This document shows positions 32,195 through 45,420 of a DNA stretch of 64,000 bases, piece by piece. The notes below the pieces were generated by a model. It worked only from the letters and a program-made list of their open reading frames with translations. It did not search any database and was not told the DNA's origin. Origin of the DNA: Candidatus Jettenia sp. (GTDB lineage Bacteria; Planctomycetota; Brocadiia; Brocadiales; Brocadiaceae). The stretch lies in NCBI GenBank assembly GCA_021650895.1, contig CP091278.1:463659-527658 (forward strand), written 5' to 3'. Positions within the stretch are counted from its first letter, which is position 1. Each line of letters opens with the position of its first letter. Made by a program: the position numbers and the translations under genes.

Positions 32195-32291
32195 GGGAGT
32201 GCATGTCGGCTGGTGTCGGCGACGGACTTCAAATCCGGTCTGTCCCGCTTTTAGCGGGATAGGTGGGTTCGATTCCCACACGCTCCCGCCA
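32195..32291 (+). tRNA. selC: tRNA-Sec (anticodon TCA)
   Basis: The 97-base gene folds as a selenocysteine tRNA. The acceptor stem is GGGAGTG/CGCTCCC. The D-stem has six pairs, GTCGGC with GTCGGC including G-T pairs. The anticodon stem-loop is CGGA CTTCAAA TCCG with TCA at 32229-32231. The long variable arm is CCCGC TTTTA GCGGG. The T-arm is GTGGG TTCGATT CCCAC, the discriminator is G and CCA is encoded. TATAAT at 32181-32186 fits a -10 box. It reads UGA as selenocysteine with SelB. It is the likely attachment site of the element to its right. Confidence 0.95.
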
Positions 32292-32628
32292 TGTAACTCT
32301 TACACAGCAACAACTTACAATTTTTTACCCCCCTAAAAAACCGTCACCAAAACGACTTTTACCTGATGTAAAAATCAAGGTAGCTGCCGCTATCGATAAA
32401 TCTGTTGATAAGCTATCGTCATCAAACGGGTCCAAAGTATATGAAACTACAAAATCCACAAGGTAATAATTCCAGCACCAAAGATTACTAAGAGATTTAG
32501 TTCGTTCATTATGATTAAGAGGGCTTCTTTGAATGCTTCTGGGTATAATATACAGTATTTCCATAAGTCACATAATAGTAACAACATATATCACATAGCA
32601 TTTCCTCATGTCGTACTTACGCAGTACC

Positions 32629-33786
32629 TTATTGAGCAACTAAGGGTAATACCTTCTCTTTACTCATGCCTAAGATATGATCTGTCATTCTCTCTATAGC
32701 ATTCCTCTTTGCATCTAGTTGTTTGTGGCTATACCTCATGGTCATGCTAACATCTGAATGGCCTAATAACTCTTTGGTGGTAACAATGTCTGATCCTGTA
32801 TCGCTGGATATTGAGGCAAAGCAATGTCTCAGGCTATGGAATGAGAAGTTATCAATTCCGATACTCTTAAACAGCTTATTGAAATGCTGGCTGTATGAAG
32901 TTACAACAAGCCTGGTAATAGCTCTATCCTCAAAAATAGTATCATTGCCTTGAGTTTCCTTATAGCCCTGCATCTCTGTTGCCAGATAGTTCGATAGCGG
33001 AATTGCTACAAGCTTACCTGTTTTGCTCTGTGTGAAGGTAATCAGACCTTTGGAGAAATCAATATCAGACCACTTCAGACGTAGCACCTCACCGAGACGC
33101 ATGCCAGTAAATAAACTGGTCAGCACCATTAGGCGATCTTTACCTGTTAGCCGATCAAAGATTAAGCCAACTTCTGACTCCGACAATATCCTATCTCTTT
33201 GTTGTGTGATCTTAAATCGTTTTACCTCTTTGCATGGATTTTTATCTATAAGCCCTGTCTTGATTGCTGTATTAAAGATATGCGTAAGGATAATAACATC
33301 CAGATTGATGCTAGATTCTTTAACACCATCGAGCTTTTTACGGTCAATCCTGTATTTTTCAATGATAAAGGGTGTTATCTTATCAAGCCGAAGTTCTCCG
33401 ATATGCCGAATAATAGCATTTACTGACGTTCGTTTTGATACCAAAGTGTTTTCTTTGGCCGTCTTGTGTAACTCCAGATAGGTCTTTGAATACTCTGCTA
33501 AGGTAGGAATAGCTTTCTTCTTAGGTAAGTTCAATTGTCCTCTCTCACGATCTGAGATAAACAAGGTAAGTCGCTTTTCTGCATCTGACTTATTCCGTAT
33601 GTCCTTGAAGGTAAGAGATTGCCATTCTTTATTATCATCGAAGAACTCAATACACCATACGCCACAGGACTTGTAATCACCATTAACCCTCTTTGGCCGA
33701 TCACCTGGACAATAGCTCTTGCCTTGTCTGCCGTTGCATGGAATAGGCTTGCATTGCTGGAAATACTTTCTGAATCTAACTGCCAT
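32629..33786 (-). CDS. Tyrosine recombinase/integrase
   Basis: The 385-residue protein has the catalytic set R-H-R-H-Y: TGMRLGEVLRLKW (first Arg), FHSLRHCFAS (HxxR) and LGHSDVSMTMRYSH (His and Tyr). A SAM-like core-binding domain covers about residues 95-185. The N-terminus has a cysteine-bearing stretch (CKPIPCNG, YCPGD), as in arm-binding domains of phage integrases. It points toward the tRNA-Sec gene 340 bp away, as usual for islands using a tRNA 3' end. It overlaps the gene upstream by 11 bp. Confidence 0.93.
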   Translation of the reverse strand: MAVRFRKYFQQCKPIPCNGRQGKSYCPGDRPKRVNGDYKSCGVWCIEFFDDNKEWQSLTFKDIRNKSDAEKRLTLFISDRERGQLNLPKKKAIPTLAEYSKTYLELHKTAKENTLVSKRTSVNAIIRHIGELRLDKITPFIIEKYRIDRKKLDGVKESSINLDVIILTHIFNTAIKTGLIDKNPCKEVKRFKITQQRDRILSESEVGLIFDRLTGKDRLMVLTSLFTGMRLGEVLRLKWSDIDFSKGLITFTQSKTGKLVAIPLSNYLATEMQGYKETQGNDTIFEDRAITRLVVTSYSQHFNKLFKSIGIDNFSFHSLRHCFASISSDTGSDIVTTKELLGHSDVSMTMRYSHKQLDAKRNAIERMTDHILGMSKEKVLPLVAQ

Positions 33787-34225
33787 AGATTGCGCACCGT
33801 CCTTTCTTAAATCTTGTTTTATGAAAATAAAAAGATGGAGAGCGGACTCTACCTACAATCTTTCCAAAGCAATTATCATAGGGTTCCCCATGAAAAAATT
33901 TTTCTACTTCTCTACCGTCATTATCTTCTATAGCTACATAATCACCGTGTTGTATTTCTGCATCAGGGTCAATCCATGCAACACATGGACTTCCACTACT
34001 ATAAGCCTCAATTGGAGCAATAAAAGTATTTTCTCCATCGATTCCTGCATCAAGATATGACATACAACACTTCTCGTGTTCTCTACCGCCTTTCCGTGTG
34101 GTGTAGTAGTCGGGACATATACAAAAAACTCTATTAAAAATTCTGTTACCATTAATAGGTATCATATCTTTCCCACACCAACATTTTCTTAAAGCCTTCT
34201 TTGCCGCCATATCCTTACTCACCAT
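33776..34225 (-). CDS. Cysteine-rich hypothetical protein
   Basis: I do not recognise it. The 149 residues have an N-terminal CWCGKDM ... CICPDYYTT ... CCMSY cluster that could bind zinc. A C-terminal half, with GDYVAIEDNDGREVEKFF and GKIVGRVRS, looks like a small beta domain. The start is uncertain: AGAAAGG lies just before ATGGTG, and the GTG one codon in has better spacing. It is translationally coupled to the integrase by overlap, so it may assist or control recombination. Confidence 0.65.
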   Translation of the reverse strand: MVSKDMAAKKALRKCWCGKDMIPINGNRIFNRVFCICPDYYTTRKGGREHEKCCMSYLDAGIDGENTFIAPIEAYSSGSPCVAWIDPDAEIQHGDYVAIEDNDGREVEKFFHGEPYDNCFGKIVGRVRSPSFYFHKTRFKKGRCAIYGS

Positions 34226-34239
34226 CCCTTTCTGTTAAT

Positions 34240-34482
34240 TTAAGAGTTTTCTTTATCTTCTAATTTCCCATAAAAGAAAGCATTCTGTATCTCTTCCATC
34301 CTTTCCTCAGCTTCTAATACAATCGGAAAGAGACTTTCAGGAATGACAGTTTCACTAGGATTAGGCGTCTTGCAACATGCTAAATCCATTATCAGAGTAA
34401 GAAGACCTCTTACGTAATCCATGTTAGATTCTGTTTTTCTCCATACATCCGCACTCAATGTTACCACTTTCTCATTGGACAT
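34240..34482 (-). CDS. Small hypothetical protein of the element
   Basis: The 80-residue acidic protein begins MSNEKVVTLSADVWRKTESN and is largely helical (LTLIMDLACCKTPN, LEAEERMEEIQNAF). It has no recognised domain. Its start faces the divergent promoter region holding the palindrome at 34609-34624, and it is likely the first gene of the unit that ends with the integrase. A regulatory role is possible but not shown. Confidence 0.6.
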   Translation of the reverse strand: MSNEKVVTLSADVWRKTESNMDYVRGLLTLIMDLACCKTPNPSETVIPESLFPIVLEAEERMEEIQNAFFYGKLEDKENS

Positions 34483-34608
34483 GTCTTATTCTCCATAAAC
34501 ACAAAAGGCAGTAAGCCAGATATGGGACGGCATACCTAGCCACTGCCTTTGTTTGCCTGATTGCTCAGGCATCTCTTGTTTAGCGTCCGTCCACGCCCTT
34601 GATTTATT

Positions 34609-34624
34609 GGTAGTACGTACTACC
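34609..34624. promoter_or_regulatory. Perfect 16-bp palindrome GGTAGTACGTACTACC
   Basis: It lies in the divergent region between the small gene/integrase unit (minus) and the small membrane-protein cassette (plus). Its core AGTACG/CGTACT is the core of the twelve iterons at 37705-38024. A regulator of the element, or the Rep protein itself, may bind here. Confidence 0.7.
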
Positions 34625-34681
34625 GTACCTTTTCAGATATTGCAAGGATATTCTTGATATATTCTTATCTCTCTTTATCTT

Positions 34682-34710
34682 TTGCTATCTGTTTGTATGT
34701 GGTGTATAAT
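34682..34710 (+). promoter_or_regulatory. Promoter of membrane cassette A
   Basis: TTGCTA (-35), 17 bases, TATAAT (-10). About 70 bp around it (34660-34730) are repeated with few changes, in the opposite orientation, at 44120-44175 in front of cassette B. Start of transcription is expected about 16 bases before the ATG at 34733. Confidence 0.8.
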
Positions 34711-34732
34711 ATGCTTACATATTTGGTGAACT

Positions 34733-34927
34733 ATGAAAAACGACGACCGTCGCCGTGAAATAGGTAAAATGTTAATTAAGATTGTAGAATACTTAATTAC
34801 TATTGCTTTAATTGGTAAGATACTTACCGAAAAAGTTACCATGTCGACAACAATAAGTGTTATAGTAACTGCCTTGATTGTGCTTGTAATTGCATTCTTT
34901 ACCATTCCACAAAATAAGGAAAAATAG
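34733..34927 (+). CDS. Small two-helix membrane protein, cassette A gene 1
   Basis: The 64 residues have a charged start MKNDDRRREIG, then two hydrophobic helices (IVEYLITIALIGKIL and ISVIVTALIVLVIAFF) and a basic tail. The layout resembles small DUF6722-like membrane proteins. It is the first gene after a strong promoter and is related in layout to the broken gene at 43928-44120, which follows a copy of the same promoter. Function is unknown. Phage-satellite proteins of this kind include holin-like and exclusion proteins, which is only an analogy. Confidence 0.7.
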   Translation: MKNDDRRREIGKMLIKIVEYLITIALIGKILTEKVTMSTTISVIVTALIVLVIAFFTIPQNKEK

Positions 34928-34928
34928 T

Positions 34929-35033
34929 ATGGATACCCTTTATATTCTGCTTGGTGGTATAGTCTTTATTGCACTTTTCTTTCTAGGCCTATCATGGATT
35001 CTGGAATATCAAGAAAAGCGCAAACATAGCTAA
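34929..35033 (+). CDS. 34-residue single-helix membrane peptide, cassette A gene 2
   Basis: It starts with ATG one base after the preceding stop. It reads MDTLYILLGGIVFIALFFLG, then LSWILEYQEKRKHS. There is one membrane helix with a basic end on the inner side. The tight spacing and the similar design of its neighbours argue for a real gene. Confidence 0.6.
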   Translation: MDTLYILLGGIVFIALFFLGLSWILEYQEKRKHS

Positions 35034-35034
35034 T

Positions 35035-35127
35035 ATGGTATTAACTTTTCTAACGCTTTTCATAATAAGCCTTGTTGTTTTAGGATTGATCTATTACACC
35101 CAAAGACCTTCCAAGCGGTCATCCTAA
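35035..35127 (+). CDS. 30-residue single-helix membrane peptide, cassette A gene 3
   Basis: It begins one base after the previous stop. It reads MVLTFLTLFIISLVVLGLIY, then YTQRPSKRSS: one hydrophobic helix with a strongly basic tail. It has the same topology as the peptides on both sides. Confidence 0.58.
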   Translation: MVLTFLTLFIISLVVLGLIYYTQRPSKRSS

Positions 35128-35128
35128 C

Positions 35129-35242
35129 ATGGACAATCTAACACTTAGTTTTATAGCTGTAGGAATAATTGTGCTTTTTATTTCCATATTCGTTTATATC
35201 CAGGAGCGAAAGAAAAGCATACTCATTAGTATGTATACATAG
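35129..35242 (+). CDS. 37-residue single-helix membrane peptide, cassette A gene 4
   Basis: The ATG lies one base after the previous stop. It reads MDNLTLSFIAVGIIVLFISI, then FVYIQERKKSILISMYT. There is one membrane helix followed by a basic ERKK stretch. Confidence 0.58.
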   Translation: MDNLTLSFIAVGIIVLFISIFVYIQERKKSILISMYT

Positions 35243-35292
35243 ACCAATATACCCCAAAGCATACCACCAAGAGAATTTGATAACATATTTTT

Positions 35293-35628
35293 ATGCCTAT
35301 AACGAAAGAACTAGAAAACATCCGTAAATTTGAATCTGTTGGCTTTACTCATGAGCAAGCCGAAATCCTGGCTGAAGCCCTTGAGCAATCCCACATTGAC
35401 GGACAGCAAAGCCTAAAGGATTTTATTACCACCCAATTCAAAGAGATTGATGTTAAGTTTAAAAACCTTCATAGCGAACTTGACAACAAATTTAAAGACG
35501 TCCGTAATGAAATTAACAGCCTGGAACTCCGTATTAAAGCATCTCATACCGATTTACTCATGAAGATATTCGGCATTGTTGTTGGATGTACCAGCATTGC
35601 TATTGCCATATCAAAGGTATGGGATTAG
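35293..35628 (+). CDS. Coiled-coil membrane protein (DUF1640/CCDC90-like), cassette A gene 5
   Basis: The 111 residues contain FESVGFTHEQAEILAEALEQ, the N-terminal hallmark of DUF1640. A coiled coil follows at about residues 35-85 (heptads in FKEIDVKFKNLHSELDNKF), and a C-terminal membrane helix (IFGIVVGCTSIAIAI) ends the protein. DUF1640 proteins are common in prophages and islands and have no settled role. It is the last gene of the plus-strand cassette, 50 bp after the previous peptide. It is likely an oligomeric inner-membrane protein. Confidence 0.82.
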   Translation: MPITKELENIRKFESVGFTHEQAEILAEALEQSHIDGQQSLKDFITTQFKEIDVKFKNLHSELDNKFKDVRNEINSLELRIKASHTDLLMKIFGIVVGCTSIAIAISKVWD

Positions 35629-35697
35629 CATGACCAATGCATCCCAAAGCATGCTAGCCGTATAAGCTCAAAGCATACATACCACACAAAGAAATCG

Positions 35698-36762
35698 TTA
35701 TAATCCATTGAATAGGCTCCTTGTTTTAAATTTAGGTTCAAAGTTTGTATACAATACTTCTATAGTTCTTGGCTTCTCCTGGCCTGCATCTGCCTTGCTG
35801 CTTCCCTTGAAGGATTGAAACTCATATTTATGCCAGCCTTTATATAGCTCGTCATACAAGCCATTCTGGTAGTGTGTGACCATTACAACACCCTTTACCA
35901 TGCTGAGCATCTTTGCAAGGGCTTGGTGGTCATCTAATGAAAAGTTTTTTTCTCCATAGTATCCTTCTGCATTCAAATATGGTGGATCAATGAAGAATAA
36001 CGTATCTGGACTATCATACCTCTGGATACATTCCCGATAATCAAGGCATTCAATAGTTACTCCCTGCATTCTTCTGGCAACATCATGAAAGGTGTCGATG
36101 CTGTTTCGAAAACTCTGCGCTGGATTGCGTCCAGTTACAGAAGGTAATGCAAAGCCGCCTGATTGCATATCACCGCCGAAGCATGTCCGATTGAGGTAAT
36201 ACCATTCTGCAGCCCTTTCAATGTCATTCAACTGTGTAGTTTTAAAATCAACTGCGGAATCAACTGCGGAATTTGCTGTGTAATTTGCTGTGTAATTTGT
36301 TTTTCTTATCACGCTCACTGTTTTATTACTTACTCCCAGTTCTCTTGCAATCTGCCTGTCGGATAGTTCAGGGCTTTCCCTTAGCATGGACACTATCTTT
36401 TGATACTTCTGGCCTTTCCCCCTTCCCTTTTTAACTGATATGTTAACTGTTGCCACGTCTCTACCTCGAATCCTGTCCCGCATCTCCTGCCACAACTGCC
36501 GTGAGTATGGCATGTGCTGGAGCACCTCAACTAACTTCCCCCGTTTCTCTGGATGCTGGAGCACACAGAAGAAGTTAATCAAGTGACCATCAACATCATT
36601 CAAGACCTCGACACGGCTAGGTGACTTACTGAATAGGACATGTCCAGCACCGCCAAAGACCTCACAATAGAGCGTGTGCTGTGGTATATGCTGGATTAGC
36701 CAATCCTTCAAGAAATACTTGCCCCCCATGCGATTGATTGGACTTTTTAAAGCCATGCTCAT
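35698..36762 (-). CDS. D12-class N6-adenine DNA methyltransferase with an internal HTH insertion
   Basis: The 354-residue protein has SPINRMGGKYFLKDWL and EVFGGAGHVLFSKS (SAM motif) at the start and LFFIDPPYLNAEGYYG (catalytic DPPY) late, giving a Dam-type methylase. Between them, about residues 100-175, is a segment absent from ordinary members: a Lys/Gly-rich linker, then a homeodomain-like HTH (SPELSDRQIARELGVSNKTV), then a low-complexity stretch made of doubled NYTA and SAVD units. No cognate restriction enzyme is beside it, so it is an orphan methylase. It could protect the element's DNA or control its genes. Confidence 0.9.
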   Translation of the reverse strand: MSMALKSPINRMGGKYFLKDWLIQHIPQHTLYCEVFGGAGHVLFSKSPSRVEVLNDVDGHLINFFCVLQHPEKRGKLVEVLQHMPYSRQLWQEMRDRIRGRDVATVNISVKKGRGKGQKYQKIVSMLRESPELSDRQIARELGVSNKTVSVIRKTNYTANYTANSAVDSAVDFKTTQLNDIERAAEWYYLNRTCFGGDMQSGGFALPSVTGRNPAQSFRNSIDTFHDVARRMQGVTIECLDYRECIQRYDSPDTLFFIDPPYLNAEGYYGEKNFSLDDHQALAKMLSMVKGVVMVTHYQNGLYDELYKGWHKYEFQSFKGSSKADAGQEKPRTIEVLYTNFEPKFKTRSLFNGL

Positions 36763-36902
36763 GTGTTCGTATGTATTCTCCTGTTTTTAAAAAGGGTACT
36801 GTCAATGTCGGTACCCCCTGTTGATGGTGTCGGCTAAAGCTACGTCATCACGATGCCCTCGCCAATAGCCAGGTCAAAGGGTGTCGTTTAAAGCTACACC
36901 CT

Positions 36903-37106
36903 TTAATCCTGCCCACAGGGTCTCACCTTCATGCTTTCCATGTGTGCAATCAGGTCACCCCGCTTAAACTTCAACAATTTGCCTAGCTTGTAATGCGGTA
37001 TAGTCCTGCGCATTGTCCATGAATAAATGGTATCGGGTGATACGCCTAAGAATGTTGCAGCCTCTCTTACGTTGAGATATTCGCTATCGTTCTTTACTAT
37101 TTCCAT
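36903..37106 (-). CDS. Excisionase-family HTH protein (AlpA/Xis-like)
   Basis: The 67 residues match the HTH_17 excisionase fold: YLNVREAATFLGVSPDTIYS, then TIPHYKLGKLLKFKRGDLIA. Such small winged-helix proteins bend DNA at att sites or activate integrase genes. The length is right and there is no other domain. In this element it is the best candidate for directing excision. It lies between the methylase and the origin region. Confidence 0.85.
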   Translation of the reverse strand: MEIVKNDSEYLNVREAATFLGVSPDTIYSWTMRRTIPHYKLGKLLKFKRGDLIAHMESMKVRPCGQD

Positions 37107-37254
37107 TGTTGTGTTCTCCTAAAAAGAATTGTTTTATTTACCTACCCTATTGCCTACTTTTGCGGCCATAAACACAGGCTTGAATCACGCTCAGAAGCCT
37201 ATAGGCTGTAGAGATTTACACCCCTATAGCCGAACCGAAGGCATTGACAGGGGG

Positions 37255-37653
37255 TTAATTACCTTCAAGATAATCAGGGTGTGTATATTTTTCGATTAAA
37301 TCGCACCTGCCTAACTCTTTCAATGTAGCGCATACCGATTGGCCGCCAGGCTTCCAGTAATGGTATTTCGGATCACTATTGGAAGGAATCACCAGGACAC
37401 CAAAATTAGTAATGTAAGGCTTTACCTGGTCAGGCTCGCAATTCTCACCCATAATCGCCATCCGTTCGGCTAATTCGTATGGTATAGCCTGCAGCTCAAT
37501 CTTACCTGCCTCTATTTTTTCTGATTCTGACTTTTGCTTTCCAACTGGAAGTTTCCCTAGTTCGTTTTTTATTTCGCTTTTACCTGCATCTGTGTTTTGC
37601 TGAAACGCTTTTTGTAATTGTGGATTGGTAAAAAATTTAGAAATATCTAGCAT
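37255..37653 (-). CDS. Hypothetical protein beside the origin
   Basis: I do not recognise it. The 132 residues are basic at the N-terminus (MLDISKFFTNPQLQKAFQQN, then a Lys/Glu-rich helix region). The second half has GENCEPDQVKPYITNFGVLV and YWKPGGQSVCATLKELGRCD, with three cysteines. AAGGAG lies at a good distance before the ATG. The position between the iteron array and xis suggests a role in replication or copy control. That is inference from place only. Confidence 0.6.
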   Translation of the reverse strand: MLDISKFFTNPQLQKAFQQNTDAGKSEIKNELGKLPVGKQKSESEKIEAGKIELQAIPYELAERMAIMGENCEPDQVKPYITNFGVLVIPSNSDPKYHYWKPGGQSVCATLKELGRCDLIEKYTHPDYLEGN

Positions 37654-37704
37654 GCAATCTCCTTCATAAGTTAGCCCCTATAGGAATATGTTAAATTTAT
37701 CTCA

Positions 37705-38024
37705 CAGTACGCTTTTTTAAGGCCAGTACGCTTTTCAGTACGCTTTTCAGTACGCTTTTTTTAGGGTGTGTTTTTTGTAAGTTTAACAAAATCAACAACT
37801 TGCATTTTTGCAGTACGCCCAGTACGCTTTTTTTTGCATATACACCCCTACCCCTTTTTTTTTATATCCTCTCTTATATATATTTTCACTTTTCACCCCC
37901 CTGCGATTGTAGAGTAAAAAAATGCGTACTGGGCGTACTATTCCAGCATTTTCAAGGGATTGCGGGAAAAAAAGCGTACTGAAAAGCGTACTGGAGGCGT
38001 ACTATTTTCAAAAAAAGCGTACTG
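37705..38024. other. Putative replication origin: 12 iterons in mirror-image arrangement
   Basis: CAGTACGC occurs in forward orientation at 37705, 37724, 37736, 37748, 37811 and 37820. GCGTACT(G/A) occurs in reverse at 37924, 37933, 37974, 37986, 37997 and 38017. Distances left to right are 19, 12, 12, 63, 9 and then 9, 41, 12, 11, 20, so the two halves mirror each other. Between the inner pairs lies an AT-rich core (37828-37923) with long T runs and a TATATATAT stretch. It abuts the 3' end of the primase-helicase gene. Iterons flanking an AT-rich unwinding region next to rep is the plan of known phage-satellite origins. Confidence 0.85.
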
Positions 38025-38037
38025 TCTTTGGTGAAAA

Positions 38038-40512
38038 TTACCCATTTTTAACGATTTTGACATAAGACTTCCCGTTTCTAAAATCTCGCTTTCCATTTTT
38101 GTGTGGATTGTAGGAAAGTCCGTTATGGTTAACCCATTTTTTTACGTAGCTGGTAAAAGTGCTGCTTTTCGTTTCGGTATCACCTGTTGTGTCTTTGTAG
38201 CTAGAAAATAAATCTTCAAATTTGTGTTCAGTATTTAAAGCAATAGCCGATTCAGCCCATTCCGAAAAGCCATCGGGTGTAGAATCTAAAAGTTTTCTGG
38301 TTTCATAATTCCTGATTTTTGGAGTAATCACCCCTTCCCCTAGATATTTTTGAATGCAATAAATCACAAAACAAAAAAATGCATTCCATTCCTCTTTATC
38401 CCATGCGGTAAAAAATACTTTGCCGTGCACCTCTTTGGGGGTTTGTAGTTTGTAGTAATCTGAGAATTCAATGATGTGCTGCCTGCGGGTGAAGCTATGC
38501 CCCTCGCCTTTTAGGGTGTGATTACTGGTGATAGTCATTTTAGGCGAAACTGCGAAGGGGATTTCAAACTTCCTGGCATTTTTTCTCTCAACGGAAAAAT
38601 TGCCTGTTGACCTCTGAAATAACGCCCGAAAGTTAAACTTCCAACTTGCGTCATCGAATGCTATGACCTCTGTGTCGGGTGTCACCTGTTGAAAGCAAAA
38701 ACGGTCTGACAAATCAACGCCCTGACCGTCCATCTGTAATAAATTTTTTATCTGTGACAGTGCTTGGACTAAAAATATACTTTTGCCAGTGCCACCCTCT
38801 GACGCTCCCTTTTCACTAATTTGAGCATCACAGCCAATAACGACAAGACAGTTAGAAACATTTTTGTATCCATGCAGCATATACCCCAATGCGGTTATTT
38901 TTGACTCAAAGTCAGACATGCGCATCCATCGCTCACCATTGGGGGTATGCTGTTCTCCCTTTGCAGTTTCTGCCGCTCGTTCTTCTTCTGTTAAAACGTA
39001 TGAAGAAGTATTTACTACAAAATCAGCAAATACGCTGGGTGTTTCAATGACTTTAAAGGCATGGGATTTTATGCTTTTTCTCCAAATGAACTTTTTCATC
39101 TCTTGTAGTTTGGTGTAAGGATGCAGTATTTCCGAGTCCTTTTTGATTTCTACAAATCCGTTGTTGAAGAATAAGTAACAGGTATCAAAAGTATCCCTTA
39201 AAAAATCAATCGTGATATAGGGCAGTGAATTTATCTGCCATTCAGAAAATAAATATGCGCTGCTGCTTTGTACTTTGCGTAAAACTTTTTTCAGAATCTC
39301 TTTTCTGTTCTTGCATCCCTCTCTACCAATCTCCTCATTTAAATAGGCCAATATAAAATCTTTCATCTGAACTGGCTGAATCTGGTCAACAATGCTATCC
39401 GAAATTCTGACATACATATATGCGGTATCTTCCGGATTGACTCTATAACGCTTAAAGCCCATTGAAGGAAGAAATTCTTGGAACAGTTTTACCGTGCATA
39501 GCTCAACATCCCCATTTTCGAGAGCTACCCAAAAATCTCCAAACCCAACTATTTCCTTGTTTTTCTTTTTGGTCTTTCCTGCACCTTCAAACTTCTCCTG
39601 CCGTCTAGTTTGAGGAAGCTCAATCCCTGCCGCCTTCGCCATGTAAATGATTGTTGCAAAGGTAACATCGCCTCGATTCGTCCGAAGGCAATTGTCATAC
39701 TTCCGATCACATTCCGCCTCATCGTATTTAGAACTTCTTTGACTCAGTGCATGGAAATAACTCCTACCTGCCTCACCGAATTCATGAGCTAGTACAAAGC
39801 CCACCTTTGTCCAATCTGGATGGCCATCGTCGCCGATCATTTTGCCGCTCTTGATAATGGCCTCCATAATGCTTTTATTATTACTCTGGCCGCTTGGGTA
39901 TGCTTTCAAATCCTCTTGTGTTGATTCGCCAAAATCTTCTGCATCAGGAACAATGACCGTCTCAGCATTTTCGTTATAGTGCAGCTTAGGGTCATATGAA
40001 ACAAAACGAAGCCGTGAGACATCCTTGCATGACTTATCAATACAAAGCTCGTAGTTCTCCTGGTAATATGCCTGGAGAAACTCAAAGCTTTCCGCATGCT
40101 GGTCGCCATCAATCTTGACGATCACGAAAAGCCCCTGCCCGGAAACAGATGAAGAAACACACTCGGAATATTTATCTTTCTGTAAATTCTCCCGCACCGC
40201 TTCAAGGCTCGTCTCTAATTCGGGATTGTCTTGAAGGTCAAAATCAATCGCCAGCCGCCCGCTATGGCTTTGCAGCCCGCTTGATTTCCGCTCGGAGAAG
40301 ACACCGCTTGGAGTGAATGCAGGAAGTCTTTGTTTCAAAGCATTTCGCTTTTTGGTGTCCGCTTCGTTCCGCACTTGCTCAACTTGATTTCTCCATTTCC
40401 CGCTTTTGATACCGTCCATGACCGCATCAAGATTGCTGGTAGCGCCTGTCTTATCGAATGAATTTTGATATAAACGGATCGAAACATCTGACAAAGTAGC
40501 CGCCTCGCTCAT
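38038..40512 (-). CDS. Primase-helicase (Rep): BT4734-like N-terminal + PriCT-2-like + SF3/D5-type helicase
   Basis: The protein has 824 residues. Residues 1-190 (FTPSGVFSERKSSGLQSHSG, LAIDFDLQD, GQGLFVIVKIDGDQ) match the BT4734/VirE-N primase-related domain. Residues 210-300 resemble PriCT-2 (DWTKVGFVLAHEFGEAGRSY). The helicase has Walker A in ASEGGTGKSIFLVQA (about 570), Walker B in EVIAFDDASWKF and a sensor TITSNHTLKGEG. It would recognise the adjacent iterons, open the origin and prime synthesis. Its ATG overlaps the stop of the gene upstream (ATGA). No second-strand replication gene is present, so host polymerase is needed. Confidence 0.88.
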   Translation of the reverse strand: MSEAATLSDVSIRLYQNSFDKTGATSNLDAVMDGIKSGKWRNQVEQVRNEADTKKRNALKQRLPAFTPSGVFSERKSSGLQSHSGRLAIDFDLQDNPELETSLEAVRENLQKDKYSECVSSSVSGQGLFVIVKIDGDQHAESFEFLQAYYQENYELCIDKSCKDVSRLRFVSYDPKLHYNENAETVIVPDAEDFGESTQEDLKAYPSGQSNNKSIMEAIIKSGKMIGDDGHPDWTKVGFVLAHEFGEAGRSYFHALSQRSSKYDEAECDRKYDNCLRTNRGDVTFATIIYMAKAAGIELPQTRRQEKFEGAGKTKKKNKEIVGFGDFWVALENGDVELCTVKLFQEFLPSMGFKRYRVNPEDTAYMYVRISDSIVDQIQPVQMKDFILAYLNEEIGREGCKNRKEILKKVLRKVQSSSAYLFSEWQINSLPYITIDFLRDTFDTCYLFFNNGFVEIKKDSEILHPYTKLQEMKKFIWRKSIKSHAFKVIETPSVFADFVVNTSSYVLTEEERAAETAKGEQHTPNGERWMRMSDFESKITALGYMLHGYKNVSNCLVVIGCDAQISEKGASEGGTGKSIFLVQALSQIKNLLQMDGQGVDLSDRFCFQQVTPDTEVIAFDDASWKFNFRALFQRSTGNFSVERKNARKFEIPFAVSPKMTITSNHTLKGEGHSFTRRQHIIEFSDYYKLQTPKEVHGKVFFTAWDKEEWNAFFCFVIYCIQKYLGEGVITPKIRNYETRKLLDSTPDGFSEWAESAIALNTEHKFEDLFSSYKDTTGDTETKSSTFTSYVKKWVNHNGLSYNPHKNGKRDFRNGKSYVKIVKNG

Positions 40513-40814
40513 TCTTGCACCTCCGCCGATAACGCATCCTGGATAGTTTTTCTTAAGCCCTCTCTAATATCCACGCTAAGCAAATATCGAAGATAGCCCG
40601 GATCACTCTTTGCAATATCGGCAATGCGCTTACCCTTGTACTTGCCAAAAGGTAACACTGGCTCGGCATGTTTAATGTGCTGGATATACCGCCCGCATCC
40701 TGAACAATATGCCGACATGTGATAGCCACCGTTAGGCAATGCGATCCGCTTGACCAACGGCTCTTCCTGGTAATAGCCGCACTTCTGGCAAATAATTGTT
40801 TTGGTATCTTTCAT
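40509..40814 (-). CDS. Zinc-ribbon protein with DUF3820/ExoX-C-like domain
   Basis: The 101-residue protein has CQKCGYY ... YCSGCGRY (two CxxC) at the N-terminus. LPFGKYKGKRIADIAKSDPG with YLRYLL follows, which is the DUF3820 motif also found at the C-terminus of exonuclease X-type proteins. It overlaps both neighbours by 4 bp, forming a tight operon (regulator, this gene, rep). A role in DNA binding or processing together with Rep is likely but not proven. Confidence 0.78.
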   Translation of the reverse strand: MKDTKTIICQKCGYYQEEPLVKRIALPNGGYHMSAYCSGCGRYIQHIKHAEPVLPFGKYKGKRIADIAKSDPGYLRYLLSVDIREGLRKTIQDALSAEVQE

Positions 40815-41029
40815 TTATTGCCCACCTCGAATAAAGCCCGCCTGATCTTTTCAATGTCTGACTCCCGATAAACCCGCTCACCGCCTGGCGATTTTAAAAA
40901 GTCTTCCCCCCTCAATTTCCTCGAATCAAACAGGTAAACAATTCGATACTTCGGCACATTTAAAATTTCTACCACTTGCCCCAGTGTATACAATTTTTCC
41001 CGCCCTAAACCTTCTTCAGTCATATTCAC
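40811..41029 (-). CDS. MerR-like small HTH regulator
   Basis: The 72 residues have LYTLGQVVEILNVPKYRIVY followed by GERVYRESDIEKIRRALFEV, a MerR-type winged helix without an effector domain. As the first gene of the rep operon it probably controls the operon, and the TGTCGA direct repeats at 41074-41105 lie just upstream. It could instead serve as a second excisionase-like factor. Confidence 0.75.
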   Translation of the reverse strand: MNMTEEGLGREKLYTLGQVVEILNVPKYRIVYLFDSRKLRGEDFLKSPGGERVYRESDIEKIRRALFEVGNK

Positions 41030-41073
41030 CCCTCTTATATCAGAATCAGAAATATAAAATTCTCACCCTGATG

Positions 41074-41105
41074 TGTCGACTGTCGGAGGTTTGTCGATTT
41101 GTCGA
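41074..41105. promoter_or_regulatory. Direct-repeat operator cluster upstream of the rep operon
   Basis: TGTCGA at 41074, TGTCGG at 41081, TGTCGA at 41092 and 41100, and one more TGTCGA at 41212 inside the terminator loop. The spacing 7-11-8 fits a multimeric repressor or activator site in the 223-bp control region of the rep operon. Confidence 0.6.
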
Positions 41106-41190
41106 CGATACAAATTTTGGCGAAATGTGCTGTGAATGGCTTAGATACTGGGGTTAAATGGAATGAGAATATTTTATAAAATCTGGGAAT

Positions 41191-41225
41191 AAAAAAACCT
41201 TGCTACCGTTTTGTCGATAACAAGG
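41191..41225 (-). terminator. Rho-independent terminator of the 370-residue gene
   Basis: On the minus strand CCTTGTTA pairs with TAGCAAGG around a 12-base loop and is followed by seven T. It lies 28 bp past the stop at 41253. Confidence 0.82.
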
Positions 41226-41252
41226 CTTTTGAGAGAAAAGGGGGACTGGCTA

Positions 41253-42365
41253 TCAGTTTAGTTTATTATGGGCTTCGGTATAAATGCCATCATGGCATTC
41301 TTGACAATGGTTTGTTGTATCCTCACACACATAGCAATAATGCCTATGGTTTTTTTTGCATACTGGACATTCCGTAAGCTGAATATGGACGGGTTTCTTG
41401 CTACTAGCTTTCCTTTTACTGATCTTAAAAAGGGTTTGATTGCTCACAATTAAATCTTTATCGGTTTGAAAAAAACTCTTTAGCAATTTGTTTAATCTTT
41501 CACTACGTTTTTGTCTTGCATTATCAACCTTATGCAGGTTCCCATTATATTCGGCATAATCTTGCAAAGCATCCCATGCAGCCAATGGACGATTGTTGGT
41601 TTTAGCAGAAAGTCCCATTTGTGCATAATGGAAAGTCTTAGATTCTTCTTTAACATCAATGCGGATATTTTCATCATCCAGGAGGCACATTTTAATATCA
41701 TTTATATTAGCTCCGGGAGGCATAGGGAAAGTGTTAACCGTGTGTGGCACACCTAGCCCGTTGGCTTTCCCCTGCATCTTTTGTGCGCTCTCAAGGCTTA
41801 TCACATTTGATTCAAACACATTCATAAATACTTTTGGTATGTCTGCCGGTGGAGTTAAAGTGCTAACAATCAACACACCTTTGTTATTCTCACTGCTTTT
41901 AAAATCCCTTATTCTAGCTGTCAGTTTTTCCAAAAAATCGCTTTCTCGGCATTTCAAGCCATTAAGAAAAACAGAACTTCCACGAAATAAGCGATCTAGT
42001 AACTTCCCTTCTGTAATCTTATCATTGCCATCATAGAAACTCTCTACACGGCTAAAGATATTATTTAATTCAGTTACATCCTCACCATACAAAGAATAAT
42101 AAGGCAGTGATGTTTCTCCTCTTATACAGTAATAATAGCTCCCTAATGCTTCTAATAAATCTATATTATCTCCTACAAGCAAAACAAGTCTACCAGTAAT
42201 TCTTTTTATCTTGTCTAGTAACTCATCTTTTATTTCTTTCTCTAAATTTTCTATAATTTGTGTTTTTACACTCTTGTCTGGAAAGTCTTTATGGTGAATG
42301 TTTTCATATAAAAGTAGCTGCCTCAAAGCTGGATGTGATATAGGTGTGCTGTTTGGCGTGTTCAC
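41253..42365 (-). CDS. Hypothetical protein with C-terminal zinc cluster
   Basis: I do not recognise this 370-residue protein. Residues 50-190 alternate beta strands and helices as in P-loop proteins (GRLVLLVGDNIDLLEALGS, GSSVFLNGLKCRESDFLEKL, GVLIVSTLTPPADIPKVFMN), but a Walker A glycine-lysine loop is missing. The C-terminus has CPVCKKNHRHYCYVCED ... CQECHDG, three CxxC pairs, probably a double zinc finger. It has its own terminator and is separate from the rep operon. An ATPase-like regulator or a defence effector is possible, but neither is supported directly. Confidence 0.65.
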   Translation of the reverse strand: MNTPNSTPISHPALRQLLLYENIHHKDFPDKSVKTQIIENLEKEIKDELLDKIKRITGRLVLLVGDNIDLLEALGSYYYCIRGETSLPYYSLYGEDVTELNNIFSRVESFYDGNDKITEGKLLDRLFRGSSVFLNGLKCRESDFLEKLTARIRDFKSSENNKGVLIVSTLTPPADIPKVFMNVFESNVISLESAQKMQGKANGLGVPHTVNTFPMPPGANINDIKMCLLDDENIRIDVKEESKTFHYAQMGLSAKTNNRPLAAWDALQDYAEYNGNLHKVDNARQKRSERLNKLLKSFFQTDKDLIVSNQTLFKISKRKASSKKPVHIQLTECPVCKKNHRHYCYVCEDTTNHCQECHDGIYTEAHNKLN

Positions 42366-42494
42366 GGTATCTCCTTTGGATAATCCTTGATAGAAGAATT
42401 AAGGACAGGCCGTCAAGGTCACGGCTTTTCGCTTCGTCAAGCTAGTCCTTAATCTTTTACTATTTGATGATGGCAAGGCTTTAAACGAAACCTC

Positions 42495-42758
42495 TTATTT
42501 ATAAATATCACGCCTGTGTCCTATCTTGTGAACAATAACAACCCTTTTGGATTGATCCAGTTCATAAATAACCCGGTAAGCTCCAACCTTTAGTTTGTAA
42601 AGCCCTGAAAGCTCGCTGCGAAGTGGCAGAAGTTCCACCACTTCTATATTCTTAGAAAACCAAGCCAGTTTATCTGTAATCCTCTTTGCCATAGGCTTAT
42701 CAATCTTTGAGAGTTCATCAATAGCTTTTGGTAGAATGGTCACACTATATTTATTCAA
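42495..42758 (-). CDS. RelE/ParE-family toxin
   Basis: The 87 residues follow the RelE fold: YSVTILPKAIDELSKIDKPM at the start, PLRSELSGLYKLKVGAYRVI in the middle and VVIVHKIGHRRDIYK at the end. Basic residues in the last strands fit ribosome-dependent mRNA cleavage. It overlaps the antitoxin gene by 8 bp, the normal order for relBE. In a mobile element it would serve maintenance. Confidence 0.93.
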   Translation of the reverse strand: MNKYSVTILPKAIDELSKIDKPMAKRITDKLAWFSKNIEVVELLPLRSELSGLYKLKVGAYRVIYELDQSKRVVIVHKIGHRRDIYK

Positions 42759-42975
42759 GTCCTAGTTCCTTTACCACCGTCTCAAGTGGAATTCCTTTTG
42801 CTTTCCTCTTTAAAGATTCTTCTAATTCAAACTCAACCTCTGGTCTTAACTCAAGCCCGTAATCAGGATCAATGGCCTCCAAAACAGTATCTTTGATAAG
42901 CTTTTTAAGCTCTCCAACGGTCATGTCGCTAACCTTTTTTTCTTTCCTTGTCTTTGATATCTTTTTACCCTGCAT
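42751..42975 (-). CDS. Antitoxin of the RelE-type pair
   Basis: The frame is open to 43107, but the ATG at 42975 is preceded by GGAAGAGGAAT, a good ribosome site, giving a 74-residue antitoxin. It is Lys-rich at the start (MQGKKISKTRKEKKVSD). MTVGELKKLIKDTVLEAIDP and a C-terminal toxin-wrapping helix (LKRKAKGIPLETVVKELGLE) follow. This is typical of short antitoxins paired with RelE. Dyad TACTA...TAGTA near 43134-43155 may be its operator. Confidence 0.85.
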   Translation of the reverse strand: MQGKKISKTRKEKKVSDMTVGELKKLIKDTVLEAIDPDYGLELRPEVEFELEESLKRKAKGIPLETVVKELGLE

Positions 42976-43264
42976 ATTCCTCTTCCTAAAAACAAAAGGC
43001 CAATTGCAGAAGGTCATGGCCTCCACAATCAGCCTTTTATTAGCTTCCTGGCTTCTAATCTGATATACACCAGTATGCTTTAATTTCGTATATTCCGCAA
43101 TGACCATGACTCATTACAGAATTTATCTTTCAGTTATACTATCACGTAGGTAGTATTTTGTTCAAGCTTCATATCCACTAGACCAATTCCAGAAAATTAC
43201 ACGCACCTAAGAAGGTATCTAATATATATGATTAATAAATATCAACTTTATAGGGGGTGGGGGT

Positions 43265-43657
43265 CTAGTCTCTCATCCTAAATCTACTCAAATCTACTAT
43301 CTGATCAAAATCAACGTCAACGTTTGCGTTAAGATTAATATTCTTCTTCGGGTCAATCCTATCCTGCTGGCCTTCGATGATACGCATAGCCAGTTTGATG
43401 CATTGATCTTGCACGCTTTTCTCTTCACCACGAGTTTCAAGTGCTTCTTTGGCAATTAGTAAGACGTTCCTTGCGATCTTCTTAGACGCTTTCAAAGTTT
43501 GAGGATCAGTTAAAATTGCGTTTTTGATTCTTGTTTCCTGCTTATACGCTGATACTGCCTTGCCCGTGTAGCCTGCAAGCGCATACGCTTCTTTTATACC
43601 TTTTCCCTCCATGCGGAAAGCTTGGAACTTTTTCGCCTTTTCTGTCAATTCTTTCAT
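43265..43657 (-). CDS. Possible phage terminase small subunit
   Basis: The ATG at 43657 has GGAG seven bases upstream and overlaps the stop of the preceding gene (ATGA). The longer reading to 43753 runs through that gene and is rejected. The 130-residue product begins MKELTEKAKKFQAFRMEGKG, then EAYALAGYTGKAVSAYKQET and RIKNAILTDPQ. This HTH-plus-helix layout is usual for small terminases. A Lys/Asn-rich linker and a short acidic tail follow. Phage satellites carry their own terS to redirect packaging, which fits. The identity is not certain, and another DNA-binding protein is possible. Confidence 0.5.
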   Translation of the reverse strand: MKELTEKAKKFQAFRMEGKGIKEAYALAGYTGKAVSAYKQETRIKNAILTDPQTLKASKKIARNVLLIAKEALETRGEEKSVQDQCIKLAMRIIEGQQDRIDPKKNINLNANVDVDFDQIVDLSRFRMRD

Positions 43658-43935
43658 GTGCTGACTCCTGATTTTTGTGTTAGCATTTTTAGGTCTTGTG
43701 TCGTACTTATGTCGTACCTGATCATAGAAATATACCAAGAAAGATAAATACAAACAAGAATTAAATTCCCTTGAAAGCCTTGTGATTGCTGATAGAATAA
43801 GAGAACTTCAATAAACATCAAAATACTTAAAAAGAGATAAAAGAGGCTATTATGCTTCTGGGTATAGTATGTCAATACAAGACCTATGAAAGCAACAATA
43901 GAAAGTATCATAAAAAATATAGCCATATCACTCAT
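43654..43935 (-). CDS. Small membrane protein, cassette B gene 2
   Basis: The 93 residues have three hydrophobic segments (IFFMILSIVAFIGLVLTYY, LFYLFLSILMFIEVLLFY and LILVCIYLSWYISMI), then a polar tail. It overlaps the gene upstream by 8 bp and the terminase-like gene downstream by 4 bp, so the three form one operon from the promoter at 44133-44161. Function is unknown. Confidence 0.7.
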   Translation of the reverse strand: MSDMAIFFMILSIVAFIGLVLTYYTQKHNSLFYLFLSILMFIEVLLFYQQSQGFQGNLILVCIYLSWYISMIRYDISTTQDLKMLTQKSGVST

Positions 43936-44120: not shown

Positions 44121-44132
44121 ATTAGTAAACAC

Positions 44133-44161
44133 ATTATACACCACATAAAAATAGATAGTAA
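44133..44161 (-). promoter_or_regulatory. Promoter of membrane cassette B (duplicate of cassette A promoter)
   Basis: On the minus strand TTACTA, 17 bases, TATAAT, with flanks matching 34660-34730 over about 70 bp (TTCTTATCTCT, TTTATCTTTT and TATGTGGTGTATAAT are shared). The ATG is only 12 bases past the -10 box, so the message would be almost leaderless. Confidence 0.78.
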
Positions 44162-44194
44162 AAGATAAAAAGAGATAAGAATATACTTGCAGAT

Positions 44195-44323
44195 GAAACC
44201 GAACAGAATATGATGCATGTTAAGTCTTTGGTTGTATACTGGTATAGGGAACGTTATGGAATCCCTAATTATGTCATTGCGGGGTAGTCTTTTCTCTATC
44301 GAGGATATGTTCGGTTTCATCTT
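44195..44323. repeat. MITE-like inverted repeat GATGAAACCGAACA
   Basis: GATGAAACCGAACA at 44195-44208 and TGTTCGGTTTCATC at 44310-44323 are inverted ends of a 129-bp unit. Similar ends lie at 49440-49455 (single) and 60130-60232 (a pair). It marks native chromosome outside the island. Confidence 0.78.
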
Positions 44324-44337
44324 TGAAATACTATAGG

Positions 44338-45279: not shown

Positions 45280-45342
45280 ATAGTCCTTTCATGTAGGGTA
45301 TAAAAAGAGTTGTATTCACCATAATCTTATATTTTCCTGCCA

Positions 45343-45420
45343 TGTAGGGCAAGGCTTTAGCCTTGCTTCCCCGCCTGGATACCTGTACGAGGATAGCAAC
45401 TCTAAAGAGTCTGTACAAAA
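45343..45420. repeat. GTAGGGCAA repeat between speD and speE
   Basis: The left half is intact (GTAGGGCAAGGCTTTAGCCT) and the right half decayed (AGCAACTCTAAAGAGT). It makes up part of the 282-bp gap. Nothing else is seen there. Confidence 0.8.

Follow-up and report, generated by a model that had tools for sequence, protein, structure and literature searches.

The closest described counterparts of the locus analyzed here are the origins of PICIs, in which two sets of iterons flank a central region immediately 3' of the primase-helicase gene rep (PMC6092414), and of SaPIs, whose Rep reportedly acts through its C-terminal domain on iterons lying downstream, apparently as a pair of hexamers (PMC7581432). 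Reading the functional origin of the Escherichia coli PICI EcCICFT073 directly, we found eleven copies of GGTAGA with five pairs mirrored to the base, in agreement with the statement in an initial annotation of the present DNA that known phage-satellite origins carry short repeats on both sides of an AT-rich region at the end of rep. In SCCmec, the D5-type self-loading helicase Cch2 binds short repeats downstream of its own gene through its C-terminal domain (PMC7581432), and in the Vibrio cholerae PLE a satellite-encoded initiator binds iterons at its own origin (PMC7145576).

Here we analyzed an iteron array in a 64-kb stretch of Candidatus Jettenia DNA, referred to in full as the window. 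We propose that an integrative island of ~11.3 kb replicates from this array, which would be fired as its origin by the island's own Rep, a reading to which we assign a probability of about 85%. We favor it because the array is unique in its genome, is conserved in the related island of Ca. Jettenia ecosi, covaries with the C-terminal helicase half of Rep, and has counterparts next to this type of helicase on plasmids, all of which supports the initial suggestion of an origin. In the literature library searched, no paper on planctomycete or anammox phage satellites was found, consistent with the earlier impression that nothing similar had been described from planctomycetes. This kind of origin is new to Planctomycetota and is not restricted to PICIs.

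Anatomy and uniqueness of the iteron array

Twelve exact copies of AGTACGC lie at 37706-38023, six on the + strand followed by six on the - strand (Table 1), as initially annotated, and the annotated spacings of 19-12-12-63-9 | 9-41-12-11-20 were reproduced exactly. By iteron number, the layout of the array is 4-2|2-4. The final repeat extends to 38023 and the 3' end of rep lies at 38038, leaving a gap of 14 bp between them and bearing out the position originally given for the array.

Only one further copy of AGTACGC occurs in the window, and 100 dinucleotide shuffles of the window contained a mean of 2.7 and a maximum of 9 copies; the Poisson probability of finding twelve within ~320 bp is ~1e-31. 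The array is also the sole place in the window where nine or more exact 7-mers cluster in a span of 400 bp. Furthermore, a genome-wide enrichment check, which had been proposed at the outset, showed that the genome (one contig of 3,822,769 bp) has eight perfect CAGTACGCTTTT sites, each of them inside the array, and CAGTACGCTTTT sites with one mismatch were scattered outside it.

A near-exact mirror had also been claimed for the array. The inner pairs mirror each other exactly and the outer quartets nearly so, but the centers of these two sets differ by ~11 bp, and a symmetry test on position only (+/-1 bp) was not significant, either here (P 0.20) or for the corresponding array of Ca. Jettenia ecosi (genome G001; SULG01000034.1, G001:C34; P 0.77). 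Permuting the spacings within each side gave 2/120 for the window array and 6/120 for the G001 array. The symmetry signal is carried by orientation, with six iterons pointing right and then six pointing left, identically in G001.

The 96-bp core between the inner pairs had been described as AT-rich, which holds in that it is ~69% A+T, but this value is only moderately above that of the surroundings. More striking is the strand asymmetry of the core, with a composition of A43 C6 G24 T23 on the rep-sense strand, on which it is purine rich and contains G-runs (GGGGGGT ... GGGGTAGGGGTGTATAT).

Table 1. Coordinates of the array, rep, and other features of the island in the window
Feature	Position	Strand	Basis or remark
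tRNA-Sec (selC), adjoining island	32195..32291	+	
Candidate att repeat, left, ATGCTTCTGGGTATA	32533..32547	+	15-bp direct repeat
Tyrosine integrase of island	32629..33786	-	Domain match
D12 (Dam-type) adenine DNA methyltransferase with inserted HTH	35698..36762	-	Domain match
HTH_17/excisionase-like regulator	36903..37106	-	Domain match
132-aa ORF, on array side opposite rep	37255..37653	-	Homologue at same place in G001 (L023 5744-6169)
Proposed replication origin, mirror-symmetric iteron array (entire)	37705..38024	.	
Outer iteron quartet, rep-distal side, CAGTACGC	37705..37755	+	Starts 37706, 37725, 37737, 37749
Inner iteron pair facing core, 9 bp apart	37811..37827	+	Starts 37812, 37821
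Core between inner pairs, proposed melting region	37828..37923	.	
Inner iteron pair facing core, 9 bp apart	37924..37940	-	Starts 37924, 37933
Outer iteron quartet adjoining rep	37974..38024	-	Starts 37974, 37986, 37997, 38017
rep, primase-helicase, 824 aa	38038..40512	-	Domain matches and structure model
Coding part for Rep C-terminal winged helix	38041..38289	-	Structure model
Small Zn-ribbon/ExoX-C-like ORF, directly upstream of rep	40509..40814	-	Domain match
Small MerR/HTH_17-like regulator	40811..41029	-	Domain match
370-aa ORF, C-terminal part common to island 2	41253..42365	-	
ParE/RelE-like toxin	42495..42758	-	Domain match
Possible terminase small subunit	43265..43753	-	Marginal PHROG match (phrog_641, E 0.005); no Pfam match
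Candidate att repeat, right, ATGCTTCTGGGTATA	43852..43866	+	15-bp direct repeat

The island carrying the array

The array is borne by an integrase island that probably spans 32533-43866. An attachment site at the 3' end of tRNA-Sec was rejected, since the tRNA end is not repeated over 12 bp anywhere in the region. Because this search was negative, we adopted the 15-bp direct repeat as the candidate attachment site, a choice supported by another island of the same genome, island 3 (L177:8111-16378; G000:C1, about 929110-937377), located just downstream of selA/selB. The integrase region of island 3 is 88% identical to that of the window island, and island 3 begins and ends at matching points, from which we infer the boundaries given above. 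Island 3 has no iteron array and combines its closely related integrase with a different replication module, composed of genes for a CHC2/TOPRIM-type primase and a RepA-like ATPase. A second copy of the right end lies just left of island 3 and suggests a tandem insertion.

Like a PICI, the window island has its own integrase and a candidate attachment site in the form of the 15-bp repeat at both ends. No capsid, tail, or large-terminase gene was matched among the island ORFs scanned, and the marginal TerS-like match weakly suggests that the island may be a phage satellite. Near both island ends lies a 61-bp inverted repeat, 90% identical between its copies (34658-34718 and 44125-44185), and related sequence is also present inside island 2 (see below) and the G001 island. 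Dispersed short repeats (about 57-88 bp) at 44191-44335 and 45342-45400 recur dozens of times throughout the three Jettenia genomes.

A clean empty site for the window island was found in neither G002 nor G001, whose selC-speE intervals vary, the conserved flanks lying about 0.9 and 3 kb apart. This difference between species in the region where the island adjoins tRNA-Sec would fit a decayed or domesticated origin, with correct anatomy in an island that no longer replicates, as would a further rep copy of this genome, which is broken, with a TGA inside the gene and no array following (L022:11600-13800; G000:C1, about 2689640-2691790). We consider such decay unlikely, as the window rep retains an intact reading frame of 824 aa, the array has uniform iterons, and the att-like repeats match exactly.

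Rep and its covariation with the iterons

Consistent with the initial annotation of rep as a primase-helicase gene, Rep contains a BT4734-like/VirE-type prim-pol domain (aa 59-179), a PriCT_2 domain (230-292), an SF3/D5-like helicase of the phrog_28855 type (about aa 326-754), and a C-terminal winged helix (about 749-822). The alignment revealed a Walker A motif, EGGTGKS, and a Walker B-like motif in the helicase. Our domain scan detected neither a Rep_3 nor a RepA_N initiator domain in Rep, and we rejected the classical iteron plasmid type (RepA/Rep_3) because Rep has no such domain and the iterons are arranged in two opposed sets.

A phmmer search of Rep against PDB sequences gave no match, and single-sequence structure prediction was unusable (pLDDT 35). 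For the C-terminal 499 residues, AlphaFold modeling from an alignment of 33 sequences reached a mean pLDDT of 67.7 (moderate confidence), with the winged helix modeled well and the helicase center and ATPase core at low confidence. The best structural match of this model was the SaPI5 primase-helicase 7om0 (Z 13.7, rmsd 5.5, 378 residues), followed by poxvirus D5/E5 (Z about 13). As modeled, Rep combines an SF3 helicase fold of the D5 kind and a winged helix at the C terminus, as in the SaPI5-type/D5 family. The last ~75 residues form the predicted winged helix, whose single-domain matches include the RFX-type 1dp7 (Z 6.6, rmsd 2.5, 67 residues). RFX proteins contact DNA largely via the wing. 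Within the winged helix of Rep, we propose SSTFTSYVKKWVNH as the recognition helix and NPHKNGKRDFRNGK as the wing, the latter mapped from the plasmids pSR14 and pSR31 described below.

Full-length Rep as a query detected no relatives among genome contigs and viral contigs, and its helicase relatives there were retrieved with an alignment query instead. In G001, a Rep 67% identical to that of the window is followed on its 3' side by an array of AGTACGC(A) with 6+6 iterons in 4-2|2-4 order and inner pairs 9 bp apart. The gap between inner and outer iterons is shorter on the rep side in both arrays (41/63 bp here and 40/66 bp in G001).

Island 2 (L021), in the same genome as the window, encodes a Rep whose aa 1-304 are 98% identical to those of the window Rep; a sharp DNA breakpoint occurs near codon 305, and the remainder is a D5_N/Pox_D5 helicase of a different family. 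The array in the same place consists of 13 copies of AACGTACT. This iteron retains AGTACG despite the different helicase, and the N-terminal half of Rep or a similar winged helix may therefore contribute to recognition. Island 2 is flanked by TTATTTTACGGTAAAT, one copy of which is present at the uninterrupted site in G002.

Salinibacter ruber plasmids pSR14 and pSR31 encode a homologous Rep helicase (about 30% identical) behind a TOPRIM-type N terminus, and within the 380-420 bp gap after rep both carry arrays of the form 4-2|2-~4. The iterons of these arrays, GTGGTCCA and GTGTCACA, form facing inner pairs, left quartets, and partly degenerate right quartets around cores with sequence runs comparable to those of the Jettenia core (CAGGGGGT ... 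GGGGTGTGTGTA). The cores of these plasmids are about 50% A+T, a value that, like the only moderate A+T content of the Jettenia core, weighs against the origin reading. The helicase parts of the two plasmids are 96.8% identical, and their differences are concentrated in the last 40 aa (10/40 versus 6/434 in the preceding residues; P 3e-8), mostly in the modeled wing, with the recognition helix unchanged. Between pSR14 and pSR31, the identical replacement occurs in every iteron. Substitutions were not significantly enriched in the iterons relative to the flanks (31/71 versus 103/303; P 0.13), and our argument for concerted change is therefore based on the identical replacement and not on substitution rate. 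Since pSR14 (14.9 kb) has no other initiator-like annotated gene, this Rep probably maintains the plasmid. Halves of a terminase large subunit lie beside rep on pSR14 (L055:6614-8040), suggesting a phage-plasmid or satellite.

These comparisons bear on the possibility that the array serves Rep or the HTH_17 protein as an operator or incompatibility site for transcriptional repression and copy counting, with the true origin elsewhere. Iterons of plasmids often serve copy control as well as initiation, and small HTH regulators lie on both sides of the replication genes. We nevertheless regard an operator as quite improbable: the repeats change together with the helicase half of Rep, even between the near-identical Reps of the two plasmids; two facing sets around a core of ~100 bp are unlike a promoter operator; and the window contains no other comparable repeat cluster.

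In a wider survey, array-like sets sharing the inner-pair geometry followed the 3' end of rep in a genome of Ignavibacteriota (L144) and in a MAG of Bacteroidota (L147). The layout varies, with outer sets pointing the same way in L144 and a mirror array 5' of rep instead of 3' in Tenacibaculum (L151:4673-4950). None of the 76 evaluable IMG/VR relatives of the helicase had such an array, nor did the Rep homologue of G030. These results led us to reject the generalization that an origin of this type accompanies all phrog_28855-type helicases and indicate that the helicase does not require the array, which is, as judged from the sequences surveyed, a feature of a subset of replicons and not of the whole helicase family. 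The G030 homologue (L027:1153-8827), next to which lie genes for a large SNF2-like helicase and for an AAA/TOPRIM-like product, is possibly a recruit to a defense locus. In G009 (L028:6861-7400), interleaved repeat families, ATATCAAACC and CGTCCCA, occur upstream of a distant rep homologue and possibly represent another type of origin.

Repeats are typical of centromeres, pSR14 carries parA, and the window island has a possible TerS-like ORF, but a partition (centromere-like) or packaging (pac/cos) site is very improbable given that the arrays lie mostly immediately 3' of rep, that their sequence follows the Rep C terminus, that the pSR14 parA is ~8 kb from the array, and that no ParA or ParB was recognized among the window island ORFs scanned.

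Proposed mechanism and comparison with known systems

For the array as the replication origin of the island, we envisage that the integrase would first excise the island and that Rep would bind the AGTACGC iterons via its C-terminal winged helix. The outer quartets, whose sites recur at roughly every helical turn, together with the inner pairs and their 9-bp spacing, would position a facing pair of Rep hexamers, one on each edge of the ~100-bp purine-rich core. Binding from two sides would constrain and melt the core, the SF3/D5-type helicase rings would unwind it, the prim-pol N terminus would prime, and host polymerase would extend both ways for bidirectional replication; a trigger of island replication is presumed as well.

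We see evenly balanced odds for a broader model, in which a cross-phylum family of self-loading primase-helicase replicons (in Planctomycetota, Rhodothermota, and probably also Ignavibacteriota and Bacteroidota) preserves a single origin geometry, with facing inner pairs 8-11 bp apart, a core of ~85-116 bp, and about four outer sites per side, and in which the 6-8-bp iteron and the winged-helix tip (wing) of Rep switch jointly. If this model is true, islands and plasmids in one cell would avoid cross-activation through the switched iteron and wing, and an origin plan once called exclusive to PICIs would be a general module of mobile elements.

Our analysis extends the SaPI/PICI-style origin to anammox planctomycetes and to plasmids of another phylum, and it provides three natural experiments on initiator-origin recognition: one iteron shared by 67%-identical Reps, a swapped helicase half together with a swapped iteron, and plasmid Reps that are nearly identical yet accompany different iterons. 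The last of these, the pSR14/pSR31 pair, predicts that the wing sets iteron specificity. With the array as a signature, unrecognized islands and phage satellites can also be searched for in phyla that are poorly cultured.

Among known systems, the V. cholerae PLE, with its satellite-encoded initiator, resembles the reading proposed for the Jettenia island in that an element's own initiator binds iterons at its own origin but differs in using a RepA_N initiator without helicase or primase domains and an unrelated mechanism. SCCmec Cch2 shares a D5-type helicase with repeats downstream of its gene, whereas its iterons are three direct 5-bp repeats without mirror symmetry and its primase is a separate, polymerase-type protein. 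The plasmids pSR14 and pSR31 have a homologous helicase and a 4-2|2-4 type array 3' of rep, and they differ in their TOPRIM-type N terminus, their other iterons, their G+C-richer core, their partly degenerate right quartet, and their status as autonomous plasmids. The Jettenia array matches, and probably works like, the PICI/SaPI origins of SaPIbov1, SaPI5, and EcCICFT073, with which it shares facing iteron sets around a core 3' of a primase-helicase rep. Relative to these origins, the Jettenia locus has its own iteron, a 4-2|2-4 plan of number and spacing, a BT4734-like prim-pol, a phrog_28855 helicase, and a planctomycete host, and arrays of its type also occur on plasmids.
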